Assembly: GCF_036417355.1 (NCBI RefSeq) | Contig: NZ_CP143889.1 | Coordinates: 1 to 64,000, forward strand | Reading direction: 5' to 3' | DNA: 64,000 bases | Source: Akkermansia sp. RCC_12PD | GTDB lineage: Bacteria > Verrucomicrobiota > Verrucomicrobiia > Verrucomicrobiales > Akkermansiaceae | Shown here: positions 40,219 through 44,744 of the stretch, one piece after another | How the letters are laid out: each line of letters begins with the position of its first letter | Position numbering within the stretch: position 1 is the stretch's first letter | Program-made: the position numbers and the translations under genes | Notes under the pieces: model-generated | What the model saw: the letters and a program-made list of their open reading frames with translations, nothing else | Database searches by the model: none | Told to the model about the DNA's origin: nothing

Positions 40219-40605
40219 TCAGAGAACGGACCAAGCCGCCAGCATGCAAACCATGCACGCCGGAGCAAGCAAACTGAACAGGAAAGCAGCTACGGCAACG
40301 GCCCGTTGCCTCACTTCCCAATACCGCAGGGAAGCTATCAGCATCCAGATGGGAAGAATGATCAAATGTACGAGGGCCAGAAAGCCCCATCCCAGCAAAA
40401 TAAACATGCAGGTCCACGCACCTTCCGGGTCGCCCTCAGGAAGGCAGAGGCCGAACAGCCAGTCAATGAACAAAAAGGCGATGAATGCCGCAAAAGGAAT
40501 CCAGCCCCAACTGGCTTCTTCCTTCCGACGGGCAAAGACCAGCTCCAGATAAGGGTTCTCCGCCACCAGGGCAGAATCAAATGTGGAATGACCTGAACCA
40601 AACAT
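40219..40605 (-). CDS. Small membrane protein, unknown function
   Basis: Starting at the ATG at 40605, the product has 128 residues and three hydrophobic segments: about WGWIPFAAFIAFLFIDWLFG, CMFILLGWGFLALVHLIILP and AVAAFLFSLLAPACMVCML. The N-terminus (about 30 residues) and the loops are short. The frame is also open to 40644, but those residues are polar and unlikely. It lies upstream of rarA on the same strand (183 bases). No family was recognised. Confidence 0.6.
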   Translation of the reverse strand: MFGSGHSTFDSALVAENPYLELVFARRKEEASWGWIPFAAFIAFLFIDWLFGLCLPEGDPEGAWTCMFILLGWGFLALVHLIILPIWMLIASLRYWEVRQRAVAVAAFLFSLLAPACMVCMLAAWSVL

Positions 40606-40897
40606 ATTGTCAGGTTCTCTATTCGTTTGCCCCTTTCCTGTCAACGCTATTCAACGGCAAAAACGGGCCGTTTATTTCAACTATCCTTTTATCTAACAAA
40701 TATTAAATATCAGGCATACTTACACTTCCATCCGCAGTAAAAACACATCGTCACATTTGCTGACCGCTCATTTTAAATACGTGAATATTCCTTTTTGGAA
40801 AACCTCTCTAATCATACCCACCACAGTAACAAATACGACTGAAGGACATAAATTGCGGCACACGGAAAATTTGTCATACAGGACCTAGCCTAAACGG
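40606..40897. other. Intergenic region, no gene seen
   Basis: These 292 bases, mostly AT-rich, show no convincing gene. They separate the small membrane protein gene from the terminator of the hexosamine salvage operon. Confidence 0.5.
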
Positions 40898-40942
40898 AAA
40901 AACAACGGGGACCACCCCGCCGGATGCAGCGGAATGGTCCCC
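40898..40942 (-). terminator. Intrinsic terminator of the epimerase operon
   Basis: On the minus strand GGGGACCA (40942-40935) pairs with TGGTCCCC (40914-40907) around a GC-rich loop, then GTTGTTTTT follows. It lies 30 bases after the epimerase stop codon. Confidence 0.85.
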
Positions 40943-40971
40943 GGAAAATCAGAAATCAAAACCCCGGAAGC

Positions 40972-41898
40972 TTACTTGCCCAGAATGCCCTTGAAGTAGT
41001 CAAGGGTGGTGGCAAGACCCTCCGGCAGCGTATATCCGGGCTGCCAGCCGGCATTGCGGAGCTTGTCGGCACAGGCGCGGGAATGCTTCACATCCCCGGC
41101 GCGTTCAGGAGCGTGGAGCACCTTGGAGGAGGAACCGGCTGCCTTGATGATATTGTCCGCCAGCTCTTCAATGGTGATCTGTCCGCCGTACCCGGCATTA
41201 AACACGCCGGTCACTCCCGGATGCTCCGCCACGAAGGTGAGGGCCCCCACAATGTCCTTCACGTAAATGAAGTCGCGCGTCTGGGTTCCGTCTCCGTAAA
41301 CGGTGATATCCTCCCCTTTCACGGCCTTCTCAATGAAGATGGGCACTGCGGCAGCATAAGCGCCCTTGGGATCCTGCCTGGGGCCAAACACGTTGAAAAA
41401 GCGGACGGCTGCGGTGTTGACTTTCCCTTCAGAACGGAACATGTTGAGGTAATATTCCCCGTCCAGCTTGGTGATGGCATAGGGGCTCTTGGGTTCCGGG
41501 TACATGGTCTCCAGCTTGGGAACCGTGGGATTGTCCCCGTAGATGGCGGCGGAAGACGCCAGCACGATCTTCTTGACTCCGGCGGCGGACGCCTCTTCCA
41601 GCACATTCAGCAGGCCGTTGACATTGATATCGATGCATTCGCTGATCTTACTCATGGACTCGGGCACGGAAACGAGCGCGGCCATGTGGAAAATGTAATC
41701 CACGCCCTGCACGGCCTGGCGCACCAGTTCGCGGTCGCAAATGGAGCCTTCGATAAAAGTGTGCTTGAGGCCGTCCAGGTTCTTGAGGTACCCGGTGCGG
41801 AGATTGTCCAGCACGCGGATTTCCTCCGCCTTGTCCTGATAATGTTCCACGATGTGGGAACCGATGAATCCGGCGCCGCCGGTTACGAGAATCTTCAT
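40972..41898 (-). CDS. UDP-hexose/UDP-HexNAc 4-epimerase-like SDR protein
   Basis: The 308-residue extended short-chain dehydrogenase has the NAD-binding GGAGFIGSHI at 7-16, the Ser in LASSAAIYG (about 115-123) and the catalytic SPYAITK Tyr-Lys pair (about 140-146). The similarity is to UDP-glucose/UDP-GlcNAc 4-epimerases. It is the last gene of a three-gene operon (29 bases after the kinase stop), where a UDP-GalNAc/UDP-GlcNAc or UDP-Gal/UDP-Glc epimerase would complete sugar salvage, comparable to LnpD of the bifidobacterial galacto-N-biose pathway. Exact substrate is inferred from context. Confidence 0.85.
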   Translation of the reverse strand: MKILVTGGAGFIGSHIVEHYQDKAEEIRVLDNLRTGYLKNLDGLKHTFIEGSICDRELVRQAVQGVDYIFHMAALVSVPESMSKISECIDINVNGLLNVLEEASAAGVKKIVLASSAAIYGDNPTVPKLETMYPEPKSPYAITKLDGEYYLNMFRSEGKVNTAAVRFFNVFGPRQDPKGAYAAAVPIFIEKAVKGEDITVYGDGTQTRDFIYVKDIVGALTFVAEHPGVTGVFNAGYGGQITIEELADNIIKAAGSSSKVLHAPERAGDVKHSRACADKLRNAGWQPGYTLPEGLATTLDYFKGILGK

Positions 41899-41927
41899 GA
41901 TTATCCGATATAGGTTGAATGGTTTGC

Positions 41928-43022
41928 TTAATAACGGTCCACGACCGCCTTCATCTCGTCCATCTGCGCTTCAATGGACTCCACCAGGGCCATCTGCGTG
42001 CGGCAGCGGTCCAGGTTGTGTTCCGGGCGGTGGATCTTGAAATACACGTCCCCGGAAAGGTAGTCCGTCAGGAAGCGGATGCCGCACTCCATCGTCAGCA
42101 GCTTGCCGGAGAACGGAAGAAGGCTCTTTTCCAGAGGGGTCAGGAAGCTCTTGGCGGAGCTTACATAACCCTGAACGAGAGCTTCAAACATGAACATGCG
42201 CATGGTGACCTTGGAAATATCCTTTTCATCTTCCGCTGCGGGAGACGTAGCGGTGCGGATCATGTCCCCGAAGTCGTAAATGGCGGAACCGGGCATCGTG
42301 GTATCCAGGTCGATCACGCAGATGCCTTCCCCGGTCACGTCATCCAGCATCACGTTGTTCAGCTTGGTATCATTGTGCGTGCAGCGCAGGGGCAGTTCTC
42401 CGGACTTCAGGTAATCCACCACCAGGTGGCAGTCCGCCTCACGGGAAAGGTACCAGTCGATTTCCTTCTGCACCTCCTTCACACGGCCGAGCGGATCAGC
42501 CTGGATGGCATCCTTCAGGGCGGCCAGCCTGGAAGTCGTGTTATGGAAATCCGGAATGGTCTCAAACAGGGGTTCGCCGGGAAGGTCGGCCGTCAGCTTC
42601 TGGAAGTCGCCGAAGGCGCGGGCCGCTTCCACGCACTGCTTGGTAGTTTCAATCTGGTCGTAGGTCCGGGCGCGTTCGATGAACGGATACACGCGCCAGC
42701 AATTGCCGTCCGCATCCAGGGCGTAGGGCTTGCCGTCCACGGCGGGCACCAGCGTGAGGGTCCGGCGGTAGGCTTCCGGACAGTTTTCCTCCTTCAAACG
42801 CTTCAGGGCGTGGTCTGTCACGCGCTTTACGTTCTCCATCAGCGGAATGGGCTGTCTGAACACGTTATGGTTCACGCGCTGGAGAATATAGCGGATGCGC
42901 AGGCCGGCCTGGTCCACCCAGACGCAGTAGGTATCGTTGATGTGGCCGCTGCCGTAGGAATAGCCCTGGACGAAATCGCCCCGGAGGTCAAACAGGGAAG
43001 AAACAGCCTTGAGATCGTGCAT
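41928..43022 (-). CDS. N-acetylhexosamine 1-kinase-like phosphotransferase
   Basis: The 364-residue protein belongs to the aminoglycoside phosphotransferase-like fold. The catalytic loop CTHNDTKLNNVMLDD (about 248-262) carries the Asp and Asn, and CVIDLDTTMPG (about 269-279) is the metal-binding DFG equivalent. N-terminal SYGSGHINDTYCV and the WRVYPFIERARTYD segment match NahK/LnpB, which phosphorylates GalNAc or GlcNAc at C1 with ATP. The nucleotidyltransferase lies 9 bases upstream and the epimerase 29 bases downstream, which strongly supports this assignment. Activity has to be inferred; other hexose kinases share the fold. Confidence 0.85.
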   Translation of the reverse strand: MHDLKAVSSLFDLRGDFVQGYSYGSGHINDTYCVWVDQAGLRIRYILQRVNHNVFRQPIPLMENVKRVTDHALKRLKEENCPEAYRRTLTLVPAVDGKPYALDADGNCWRVYPFIERARTYDQIETTKQCVEAARAFGDFQKLTADLPGEPLFETIPDFHNTTSRLAALKDAIQADPLGRVKEVQKEIDWYLSREADCHLVVDYLKSGELPLRCTHNDTKLNNVMLDDVTGEGICVIDLDTTMPGSAIYDFGDMIRTATSPAAEDEKDISKVTMRMFMFEALVQGYVSSAKSFLTPLEKSLLPFSGKLLTMECGIRFLTDYLSGDVYFKIHRPEHNLDRCRTQMALVESIEAQMDEMKAVVDRY

Positions 43023-43031
43023 TGCGGGAAC

Positions 43032-43940
43032 TTAGTTGAGCTTTTCAGGGTACACGCCCTGCTTGATCAATTTGTTGATGCCTTCCACAACCATGGGCTT
43101 GTCATCCGGATAGGTGACGCCGAACCAGGTGGAGGTAGTAGGCAGAACCTTGCAGTCCGCCCGGTCCGCATGAATCAGGGCGTCCACCACGGTGGGAATG
43201 AAGCATTCGCTCTTGGGCTCCTGTCCGTATTCTTTCAGGAAGTCAATGAAACGGTCTTCCGTCAATTCGACAAAGGAGGGGGAGAAGAGCCAGAAATTCA
43301 TGGACACCAGTTCTTCCGGATTCACGGGCAGGCGTTCGCCCTTCAGGTTATTCCCGCGCACCACTCCGTCTTCATCGGCCTGAATCTTCACGAACTCTTC
43401 CACACCGTCCAGCAATCCCTCCTTGATGGAGCAGATGCCGCGGTTCACGTCCCCGTTGTCGGACAGGGTATTCTTCAGCGGATACCCGATCATGCCGTAA
43501 TGGGCCTTGTTCGGTTCATCCGTGGTGGAAGTCAGGAACTTGGCAGCCTGGACAAAAGCGTCCGCGCCGTAAAAATCGTCAGCGTTCACGACGGCGAAAG
43601 GCTCCTTCACCACATTGCGGGCGGCGCGCAGGGCGTGGGCGGTGCCCCAGGGCTTTTCACGGCCTTCCGGCACGGAAAAGCCTTCCGGCAGGTCGTCCAG
43701 GGACTGGAACGCATAATCCACTTCAATCTTGTCGGCAAATCGGCTGCCGACCTTTTCCTTGAACACATCTTCAAAATCGCGGCGGATGATGAATACCACC
43801 TTGCCGAATCCGGCGCGGATGGCGTCATAAACCGAATAATCAAGAACGACTTCACCATTGGGGCCCATCGGGTCAAGTTGCTTGAGGCCGCCGTAACGGC
43901 TGCCCATGCCAGCTGCTAAAACAAGAAGTGTAGGCTTCAT
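43032..43940 (-). CDS. Sugar-1-phosphate nucleotidyltransferase (UDP-HexNAc pyrophosphorylase-like)
   Basis: The 302-residue protein starts with the nucleotidyltransferase signature LAAGMGSRYGGLKQLDPMG (8-26) and contains the metal-binding VVNADDFYG (about 106-114). It would join a hexose or HexNAc 1-phosphate to UTP. As first gene of the operon with a NahK-like kinase and a 4-epimerase, it corresponds to LnpC of the bifidobacterial lacto-N-biose/galacto-N-biose pathway. The short leader TAATGGCCCGCGTATT precedes the ATG without a Shine-Dalgarno sequence. UTP-glucose-1-phosphate uridylyltransferase is the main alternative. Confidence 0.85.
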   Translation of the reverse strand: MKPTLLVLAAGMGSRYGGLKQLDPMGPNGEVVLDYSVYDAIRAGFGKVVFIIRRDFEDVFKEKVGSRFADKIEVDYAFQSLDDLPEGFSVPEGREKPWGTAHALRAARNVVKEPFAVVNADDFYGADAFVQAAKFLTSTTDEPNKAHYGMIGYPLKNTLSDNGDVNRGICSIKEGLLDGVEEFVKIQADEDGVVRGNNLKGERLPVNPEELVSMNFWLFSPSFVELTEDRFIDFLKEYGQEPKSECFIPTVVDALIHADRADCKVLPTTSTWFGVTYPDDKPMVVEGINKLIKQGVYPEKLN

Positions 43941-44015
43941 AATACGCGGGCCATTATGACCAAGCCTCCCGGTTTGGCAACTGGAAAATGCCGGGAGAAG
44001 GGAGAAAATGCCCGG

Positions 44016-44744
44016 TCAGAAAGAGTAAGAGCACCAAAGCCCCAGCACCACTTTTTTAAAATCGTCGCGCCCGTAGCCGCAATACAATCCGATGAAAGGC
44101 TCCACCCGCAGCCCGGTGGATGCGCCCCACAGGAATCCTGTGCGCACCATCACCTCCTTCAGGCCGGTTCTGCCCATATAATCCTGAGAAAAGCCCAGGG
44201 ACACCGTATTCACCATGGCCACGGACTCACACAGCAGTGGCTGCCAGGTAGCCGCCCACTCCGAATAAAATCCATCCTGCCCGGCATCGTAAAGCAGGGA
44301 ACCGCGGAACGACCAGTCCCTCTTGGGATTCCACCTCAGCACCAGCCCCGGCTCAGCACCGCTCTTCAGGGGACAGGAATCATACCACTGCCCGTTGAGG
44401 AAGAAGCCGGCCGTACACTCGTCCGCCAGGTAATACTGGACCTCCCCGTGCAGGGAAGTCTGGTTGAAATTCCGACTCTGCCAGTTGCGGACGGAAAAAA
44501 GCTCCCCACTCATGGCCCAGGAATCAGACAGGGAAAAACCGCCGGAAATCTGCCCTTCCACAGAATTGTTCCCCATCTTCTCCCCCCGGTAAACGTAATG
44601 GGAACGGTAGCCGCCCAGCAACTCGCCGCCCATGCGTATGGGGGAACGCCCGTCCATCTCCGTCAGTGGCGGCGGCCCCTCGTAGCCCAGCGCCGCCAGC
44701 GCGGCACAGCACAGGATCATGGCAAAAAGCCTCATTCCATTCAT
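44016..44744 (-). CDS. Predicted outer-membrane beta-barrel protein
   Basis: The 242-residue protein has a signal peptide (MRLFAMILCCAALAALG; ATG at 44744 or 44735). The mature part alternates polar and hydrophobic residues in about ten to twelve predicted strands rich in Tyr, Trp and Gly (GELLGGYRSHYVYRG, GLYCGYGRDDFKKVV). It ends with Phe (WCSYSF), the usual C-terminal aromatic of barrel proteins recognised by the BAM complex. No specific family was recognised. It is transcribed towards the operon of 40.9-43.9 kb and divergently from the site-2 protease gene. Confidence 0.6.
   Translation of the reverse strand: MNGMRLFAMILCCAALAALGYEGPPPLTEMDGRSPIRMGGELLGGYRSHYVYRGEKMGNNSVEGQISGGFSLSDSWAMSGELFSVRNWQSRNFNQTSLHGEVQYYLADECTAGFFLNGQWYDSCPLKSGAEPGLVLRWNPKRDWSFRGSLLYDAGQDGFYSEWAATWQPLLCESVAMVNTVSLGFSQDYMGRTGLKEVMVRTGFLWGASTGLRVEPFIGLYCGYGRDDFKKVVLGLWCSYSF

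Follow-up and report, generated by a model that had tools for sequence, protein, structure and literature searches.

A candidate hexosamine-activation operon in Akkermansia and its possible role in cell-wall precursor supply

Which enzymes could carry scavenged amino sugars to uridine diphosphate N-acetylglucosamine (UDP-GlcNAc) in Akkermansia? Akkermansia muciniphila has been described as requiring N-acetylglucosamine (GlcNAc) or N-acetylgalactosamine (GalNAc) and as lacking GlmS, and a 'GlcNAc shortcut' has been proposed (Van der Ark et al., PMC5902328; here and below, statements on published work refer to the available passages of the cited papers). The question is raised by a three-gene operon in the first 64,000 nucleotides (the window, meaning the whole stretch analysed here) of NZ_CP143889.1, the single contig (3,168,262 bases) of the genome of Akkermansia sp. 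RCC_12PD (GCF_036417355.1). The operon encodes a sugar-1-phosphate nucleotidyltransferase (NT), a homologue of N-acetylhexosamine 1-kinase (KIN) and an NAD-dependent UDP-sugar 4-epimerase (EPI). On the sequence evidence presented below, we consider it fairly probable that the operon constitutes a hexosamine activation pathway, which likely supplies cell-wall synthesis in a genus lacking GlmS, and KIN and NT, together with EPI where present, are perhaps a candidate enzyme set for the proposed shortcut.

Organisation and predicted activities of the operon

All three genes are encoded on the minus strand, and their open reading frame coordinates within the window give the transcription order NT (43032..43940; 302 residues), KIN (41928..43022; 364 residues) and EPI (40972..41898; 308 residues), with intergenic gaps of 9 base pairs (bp) between NT and KIN and of 29 bp between KIN and EPI. 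These positions bear out a preliminary description of the locus, which had reported adjacent nucleotidyltransferase, NahK-like kinase and 4-epimerase genes. The three-gene operon is real, and it is located in an Akkermansia-like genome.

NT presented a weak match, albeit above threshold, to the Pfam NTP_transferase family (PF00483; 26.2 bits, cut-off 21.2), and NTP-transferase models were its only matches in Pfam, with no GalT-type uridylyltransferase among them. Its best NCBIfam match was the archaeal-type GlmU (29.8 bits versus a cut-off of 292.1), and it scored far below every GlmU cut-off. The closest solved relative is a Porphyromonas gingivalis protein (PDB 3pnn; E 4e-99, 52% identity) labelled merely as 'conserved domain protein' or 'glycosyltransferase'. 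An AlphaFold2 model of NT (pLDDT 93.7) matched 3pnn with a Z of 38.2, followed by GlmU, PntC, RmlA and GalU; the latter four tied at Z about 22-23, and fold comparison was for this reason dropped as a means of fixing the NT substrate. Given that NT is not of the GalT type, its expected chemistry would be a UTP-consuming step with net output of UDP-N-acetylhexosamine (UDP-HexNAc), rather than an exchange with UDP-glucose. We hence predict NT to be a UTP:hexosamine-1-phosphate uridylyltransferase, the substrate being the weak point of this reading. Judging from its family, its genus and its place near the contig start, NT is probably the galY gene product (Amuc_0031) of A. muciniphila: both belong to the NTP_transferase family and adjoin a galE-like epimerase gene, a neighbourhood also found in relatives.

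Residues 6-361 of KIN align with Bifidobacterium longum NahK (4wh1; E 9e-92), spanning the full length of the protein, and at E 0.001 no solved relatives were found other than NahK of the B. longum type (E 9e-92 to 1e-89). Eight of the 15 inspected NahK positions (H206, D208, K210, N213, D228, D230, R306 and Y317) are invariant in 35 of 35 kinases. Three of these, D208, D228 and R306, which we take to be catalytic or substrate residues of NahK, are thus identical in KIN and in its two paralogues in this genome, while other inspected positions vary (e.g. F247, replaced by Thr in KIN). By homology, KIN probably belongs to the NahK family, and phosphorylation of GlcNAc and GalNAc at C1 is predicted.

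EPI matches PF01370 (E 3e-61) and many sugar-nucleotide epimerases, including WbgU (182 bits, E 1.3e-52), WbpP (179 bits, E 1.2e-51) and GalE proteins. Because 4zrm (204 bits, E 3.3e-59), which bears the name UDP-glucose 4-epimerase, outscores WbgU and WbpP, sequence rank cannot settle the substrate of EPI; the other UDP-glucose 4-epimerases compared are 2p5u (183 bits), Escherichia coli GalE (130) and B. longum GalE (6k0g; 95). Where E. coli GalE carries Tyr299, EPI and two aligned relatives have Ser, a small residue as in the WbpP/WbgU type, and in B. longum GalE the presence of Cys299 at that position makes room for N-acetylhexosamine (HexNAc; PMC6668579). Judged by this gate residue, EPI is predicted to be HexNAc-permissive.

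With regard to substrates and direction, we infer a route in which imported GlcNAc or GalNAc would be phosphorylated at C1 by KIN with ATP, the resulting HexNAc-1-phosphate would react with UTP via NT to yield UDP-GlcNAc or UDP-GalNAc, and these two products would be interconverted by EPI. In outline, the salvage of free HexNAc through an anomeric kinase, followed by activation to UDP sugars, appears to have been correctly anticipated in the preliminary description.

The NT-KIN pair and the Glm pathway in the genus and its relatives

The comparative analysis encompassed 59 genomes (this genome, G000, and its relatives), comprising 37 of the genus and 22 others of the order. NT was detected in 50 of them and KIN in 48. 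Judged by match coordinates, NT and KIN lie next to each other in every one of the 34 genus genomes, among the 37 searched, that have NT, and in three of three genomes of family f6; within the genus, identity to the NT of the window ranges from 73 to 100%. Three of the 22 non-genus relatives carry the pair, four have both genes apart, nine have NT alone, five KIN alone and one neither. The region downstream of KIN was available for 30 loci from the 34 genus genomes with NT (about 550 bases in the case of L015), and EPI was identified there in just six, so that the three genes do not hold as a conserved unit within the genus. EPI also follows KIN in two non-genus genomes (G041 and G044) and in the named loci L111, L124 and L143, which suggests that it has probably been lost in part of the genus. 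The stable unit is the NT-KIN pair, and not the three genes together.

Beyond these genomes, the 80 best of 550 named NT loci were considered (33 of the 80 in analysis A2); many are short-flanked, and neighbour counts among the 80 are hence lower bounds. The closest of them (L109, Akkermansia sp.) encodes an NT 75% identical to that of the window. KIN was found within 100 bp of NT in at least 12 of the 80 (L109, L111, L113, L116, L124, L143, L144, L151, L158, L176, L177 and L188), and EPI-like genes with 64-79% identity complete the trio in at least three. Acidobacteriota and Bacteroidota account for three of the pair-bearing loci each (one of the former from the isolate Occallatibacter savannae), Lentisphaeria for two and Opitutae for one. 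The recurrence of the NT-KIN neighbourhood across genus genomes, family f6 and these named loci, some of them in other phyla, indicates that it is not due to chance. It also implies that the pair is not confined to Akkermansia or to a mucin niche, and that the link to mucin does not account for its conservation. Two metagenome-assembled records titled Akkermansia muciniphila (L112 and L113) encode NTs that are merely 65 and 63% identical to that of the window, outside the genus range, and their titles look wrong. One genus genome additionally carries a divergent NT copy with 47% identity (G008:C14:14732-15613; L104).

In a kinase tree of 34 loci plus B. longum NahK, the NT-adjacent label clusters (5 changes versus a shuffled mean of 11.8); the tree topology was not used, with 13 of its 32 inner branches unresolved and long branches meeting.

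GlmS was found above cut-off in none of the 37 genus genomes, compared with 16 of the 22 other order members and 14 of 14 controls; the glmS of G052, split across two contigs, was counted as not above cut-off. In this genome, neither GlmU (above cut-off in 9 of the 14 controls) nor GlmM (8 of 14) returned a match above cut-off, and the GlmU model TIGR01173 was above cut-off in none of the 59 genomes. The Bacteroidota-type alternative GlmU (PF13562) was also considered and found in none of the 59, with no control matching either.

All six non-genus relatives without NT (G037, G040, G042, G045, G049 and G054) carry instead a UAP1/AGX1-type protein; that of G042 matches AGX1 with an E of 1e-80, and the other five match that of G042 at 54-57% identity. 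This type was not found in the 16 NT-bearing non-genus relatives, of which five have no UDPGP match and 11 a strong one. The strong UDPGP protein aligns with the UDP-glucose type in five of these 11 (G038, G046, G051, G056 and G057), and in the other six it was typed by score (380-404 versus 104-133 bits); weak second UDPGP matches (25-35 bits) in four of the 11 genomes were left outside the UAP1 typing. The UDPGP-family protein of this genome (L089:4476-5861; at about 3054500) has 3gue (E 4.5e-120) and 2oef among its best PDB matches. Both are trypanosomatid enzymes. The protein of this genome is a eukaryote-type UDP-glucose pyrophosphorylase; being of the UDP-glucose type, it was dropped as a candidate UDP-GlcNAc maker. 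A short nucleotidyltransferase resembling the N-terminal part of GlmU or of archaeal GlmU was observed alongside UAP1 in NT-less relatives of the order (L095:4415-5137 and its likes in G037, G040, G045 and G049).

Gene order, homology, kept catalytic residues, the lack of Glm matches above cut-off and the complementarity between NT and UAP1 among the relatives covered are all read from the sequence. With no GlmS above cut-off in the genus, and no GlmM or GlmU above cut-off in this genome either, the NT-KIN route could serve cell-wall synthesis as well as catabolism. In physiological terms, scavenged sugar would be turned into UDP-GlcNAc for peptidoglycan and lipid A, a role that we infer for a genus lacking GlmS.

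Objections and competing explanations

A bolder claim, which we regard as possible but doubtful, is that NT-KIN would be the main, and perhaps the only, Akkermansia route to UDP-GlcNAc, with all of its peptidoglycan and lipid A derived from C1-activated host hexosamine and the Glm pathway bypassed, and that the NT (galY) family would act, so far unrecognised, as the UDP-HexNAc pyrophosphorylase in many Verrucomicrobiota as well as in some Bacteroidota and spirochaetes, groups described as having no UDP-GlcNAc pathway. A number of observations weigh against a role of the pair in UDP-GlcNAc supply. Three genus genomes have no NT match (G007, G012 and G027, all drafts, 84, 71 and 95% complete), and two non-genus relatives (G057, 94% complete, and G058, 86%) present NT with neither KIN nor a full GlmS. 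This genome encodes two KIN paralogues, 47 and 51% identical to KIN and keeping the invariant NahK residues (L031:8867-10024, at about 1400893, and L032:8873-10021, at about 2640908), and NT adjoins neither. The complementarity with UAP1 is itself open to objection. Five of the six UAP1 genomes belong to one family, so that the presence or absence of NT and of UAP1 cannot be treated as independent and reflects few separate events, and five of the six also encode a GlmU-N-like protein (66-75 bits), so that UAP1 is maybe not the sole candidate there.

Other objections concern remnants of the Glm pathway. A stand-alone acetyltransferase resembling the C-terminal half of archaeal-type GlmU (200 bits; L093:4349-5293, at about 1224855), with an N-terminal stretch that matches no model, is encoded in this genome, and 27 of the 37 genus genomes have a match to it. 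The best model for a mutase of this genome (L090) is archaeal GlmM (145.6 bits versus a cut-off of 439), and very slow growth on glucosamine plus glucose has been reported (PMC5902328). The retention of the acetyltransferase, the mutase nearest to archaeal GlmM and this slow growth suggest that a glucosamine-1-phosphate route may still be running. On the side of the preferred reading, both GlmS-bearing relatives inspected (G044 and G051) have glmM and glmS adjacent to a GlmU-C-like acetyltransferase gene that lies between them; such a unit would cover all steps but uridylyl transfer, which is thereby left to a gene elsewhere. Four PF00483 proteins are encoded in this genome: RmlA (at 2097988, named by eye), a mannose-1-phosphate guanylyltransferase (a below-cut-off match), a MurU/GMPPB-like protein (at 2774588) and NT. 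The MurU/GMPPB-like nucleotidyltransferase, with matches in 59 of 59 genomes, is a possible alternative maker of UDP-GlcNAc; all six UAP1-bearing relatives have such a match too, and its presence did not spare UAP1.

The neighbourhood of NT in other taxa bears most directly on its substrate. In Bacteroidota-type loci, NT is accompanied by Leloir genes: of 94 loci compared, 10 have a galM cluster near NT and 8 a galK cluster (one member per cluster being identified with Pfam), and a GalE-like gene lies within about 170 bp downstream of NT in at least 11 of the 80 named loci. These neighbours also count against the preferred reading and favour the use of galactose-1-phosphate, by NT as GalY or as a broad enzyme. 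In Muribaculaceae-type loci, NT is found near galactokinase and galactose mutarotase genes (L161:255-1391 and L169:4939-5991), and a GalE-like gene follows NT elsewhere. These data are in agreement with the prediction of Ravcheev and Thiele (2017; PMC5583593), who named Amuc_0031 galY and proposed it as a replacement for GalT on the basis of phyletic profiles and clustering with galE and galMP, the selection criterion being the presence of galK and the absence of galT. NT would then be a UTP:galactose-1-phosphate uridylyltransferase of the Leloir pathway, its adjacency to KIN would reflect a common use of mucin sugars, and another enzyme, such as the universal MurU/GMPPB-like protein, would make UDP-GlcNAc. 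We hold this to be somewhat unlikely in Akkermansia, where, as in the three f6 genomes, the partner of NT is a homologue of a HexNAc kinase and not GalK; moreover, a galactose-1-phosphate role alone leaves the UAP1 of the six NT-less relatives unexplained. Outside Akkermansia, these neighbourhoods support a Leloir role for the NT family, and the galactose-1-phosphate and HexNAc-1-phosphate roles of NT may exist side by side.

It is also conceivable, if rather unlikely, that the operon serves a purely catabolic salvage of mucin sugars akin to that of the bifidobacterial lnp operon, with UDP sugars as mere carriers toward glycolysis. The homology of KIN to NahK agrees with such a role, as does the requirement of Bacteroides thetaiotaomicron for the NahK homologue BT4240 during growth on GalNAc (PMC11992087), and the detection of NagA above cut-off in this genome makes catabolism of the same amino sugars possible. 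NT is, however, no GalT by Pfam, so that one UTP would be spent per sugar, and the NT-KIN pair is present in further phyla as well, including the Acidobacteriota. An anomeric kinase of the APH fold beside a sugar nucleotidyltransferase is, in principle, also the layout of the AmgK/MurU cell-wall recycling pair, which would act here on N-acetylmuramic acid or GlcNAc from the cell's own peptidoglycan. The MurU model, however, matches NT with an E of merely 0.033, compared with 2.4e-33 for one other gene of this genome (likewise below cut-off), and the solved relatives of KIN found at E 0.001 are all NahK, which makes a recycling pair very improbable. Lastly, the resemblance of EPI to WbpP and WbgU, which have roles in polysaccharide loci, could point to an operon for lipopolysaccharide or capsule precursors. 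We deem this highly improbable, given that no glycosyltransferase model matched the three operon genes or four scanned neighbours, and that peptidoglycan needs UDP-GlcNAc in any case.

Genomic surroundings, described systems and implications

The preferred reading, hexosamine activation by NT and KIN, can be set against the surroundings of the operon and the systems described in the literature. An intrinsic-terminator-like hairpin with 17 pairs (12 of them G-C) and a T tail (40906..40943, minus strand) starts 28 bases past the EPI stop, in a region with 8 terminator-like sites versus 4.8 in shuffles. A promoter-like site 5' of NT (TTGCCA-16-CATAAT, 10/12; 43953..43980, minus strand) is one of 2 in the region, not enriched relative to the 2.1 of shuffles. 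Pfam scans of the four operon neighbours identified an M50 peptidase and an MgsA-type ATPase, and returned no match for the other two (40219-40644 and 44016-44744). The latter, on the minus strand 75 bp upstream of NT, encodes a 242-residue protein whose N-terminus resembles a signal peptide by eye, and proteins of its type lie within the 1.5-kilobase flanks of three of 30 genus loci, that of the window included. A relationship between this protein and one found beside a kinase paralogue was considered and rejected, the similarity being just a 10-residue chance match (E 3.3). One of the two KIN paralogue genes is flanked by obg and a D-Ala-D-Ala-ligase-like gene, and the other adjoins a gene for an unassigned protein, by eye a possible outer-membrane barrel.

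The likeness to the lnp operon noted in the preliminary description stands for the NahK-type kinase, which is found in one cluster with a UDP-hexose 4-epimerase in both cases, and fails for the uridylyltransferase: the lnp enzyme of Bifidobacterium is GalT (EC 2.7.7.12, class II; PMC6668579, PMC8106489) and NT is an NTP_transferase protein. EPI likewise differs from its counterpart, scoring higher with WbpP and WbgU than with B. longum GalE, though highest with 4zrm. As the preliminary description stated, the operon has no sugar transporter gene, and ABC transporter models gave no match to its genes or to the four scanned neighbours, two of which have no Pfam match at all. The missing phosphorylase is borne out within the operon; for the genome as a whole, a search with the GH112 model (PF09508) returned no match, and neither did any control genome, so that absence is likely but not proved.

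Anomeric phosphorylation of mucin GalNAc by a NahK-family kinase has also been described for BT4240 of B. thetaiotaomicron, which, in contrast to KIN, is encoded together with glycosidases in a polysaccharide utilisation locus (PMC11992087); the main text of that work contains neither the word nucleotidyltransferase nor UDP-GalNAc. The proposed reaction of NT is shared with the N-terminal domain of GlmU, which it also resembles in fold (Z 23.3 to Staphylococcus aureus GlmU) and through its weak archaeal-type match, but NT has no acetyltransferase domain. UAP1/AGX1 UDP-HexNAc pyrophosphorylases, whose reaction is the one proposed for NT and which fill the slot of NT in NT-less relatives, belong to a different family (UDPGP; PF01704). 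With respect to galY, the available passages of PMC5583593 predict a galactose-1-phosphate substrate and leave the neighbouring kinase unmentioned; here, the presence of that kinase and the complementarity with UAP1 point to HexNAc-1-phosphate.

In the literature searched, Amuc_0029, Amuc_0030 and Amuc_0031 are named solely in PMC5583593, where the GlcNAc catabolic pathway is scored absent in the Verrucomicrobia covered by that study. A. muciniphila has elsewhere been described as lacking GlmM and GlmS, with an alternative pathway deemed possible (PMC5814848), and the FCB group, Spirochaetes and A. muciniphila have been listed as having no UDP-GlcNAc pathway (PMC7725333). The main texts of a Verrucomicrobium essential-gene paper and of an Akkermansia reduced-genome paper do not contain the glm terms searched for, and, as far as listings, abstract openings and passages reveal, no paper among the matches listed assigns these genes to UDP-GlcNAc supply.

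These results put names to putative enzymes for UDP-GlcNAc supply without GlmS or GlmM, a point left open in the available passages of PMC5902328, PMC5814848 and PMC7725333. Growth on GalNAc has been credited to the GalE protein Amuc_1125, and no kinase is mentioned in the available main text of that study (PMC5902328); if the proposed reading is correct, the metabolic model behind that assignment would gain a kinase and a uridylyltransferase, and the 2017 assignment of galY would need to be widened. The amino-sugar dependence of a candidate probiotic would thereby acquire an enzymatic basis.

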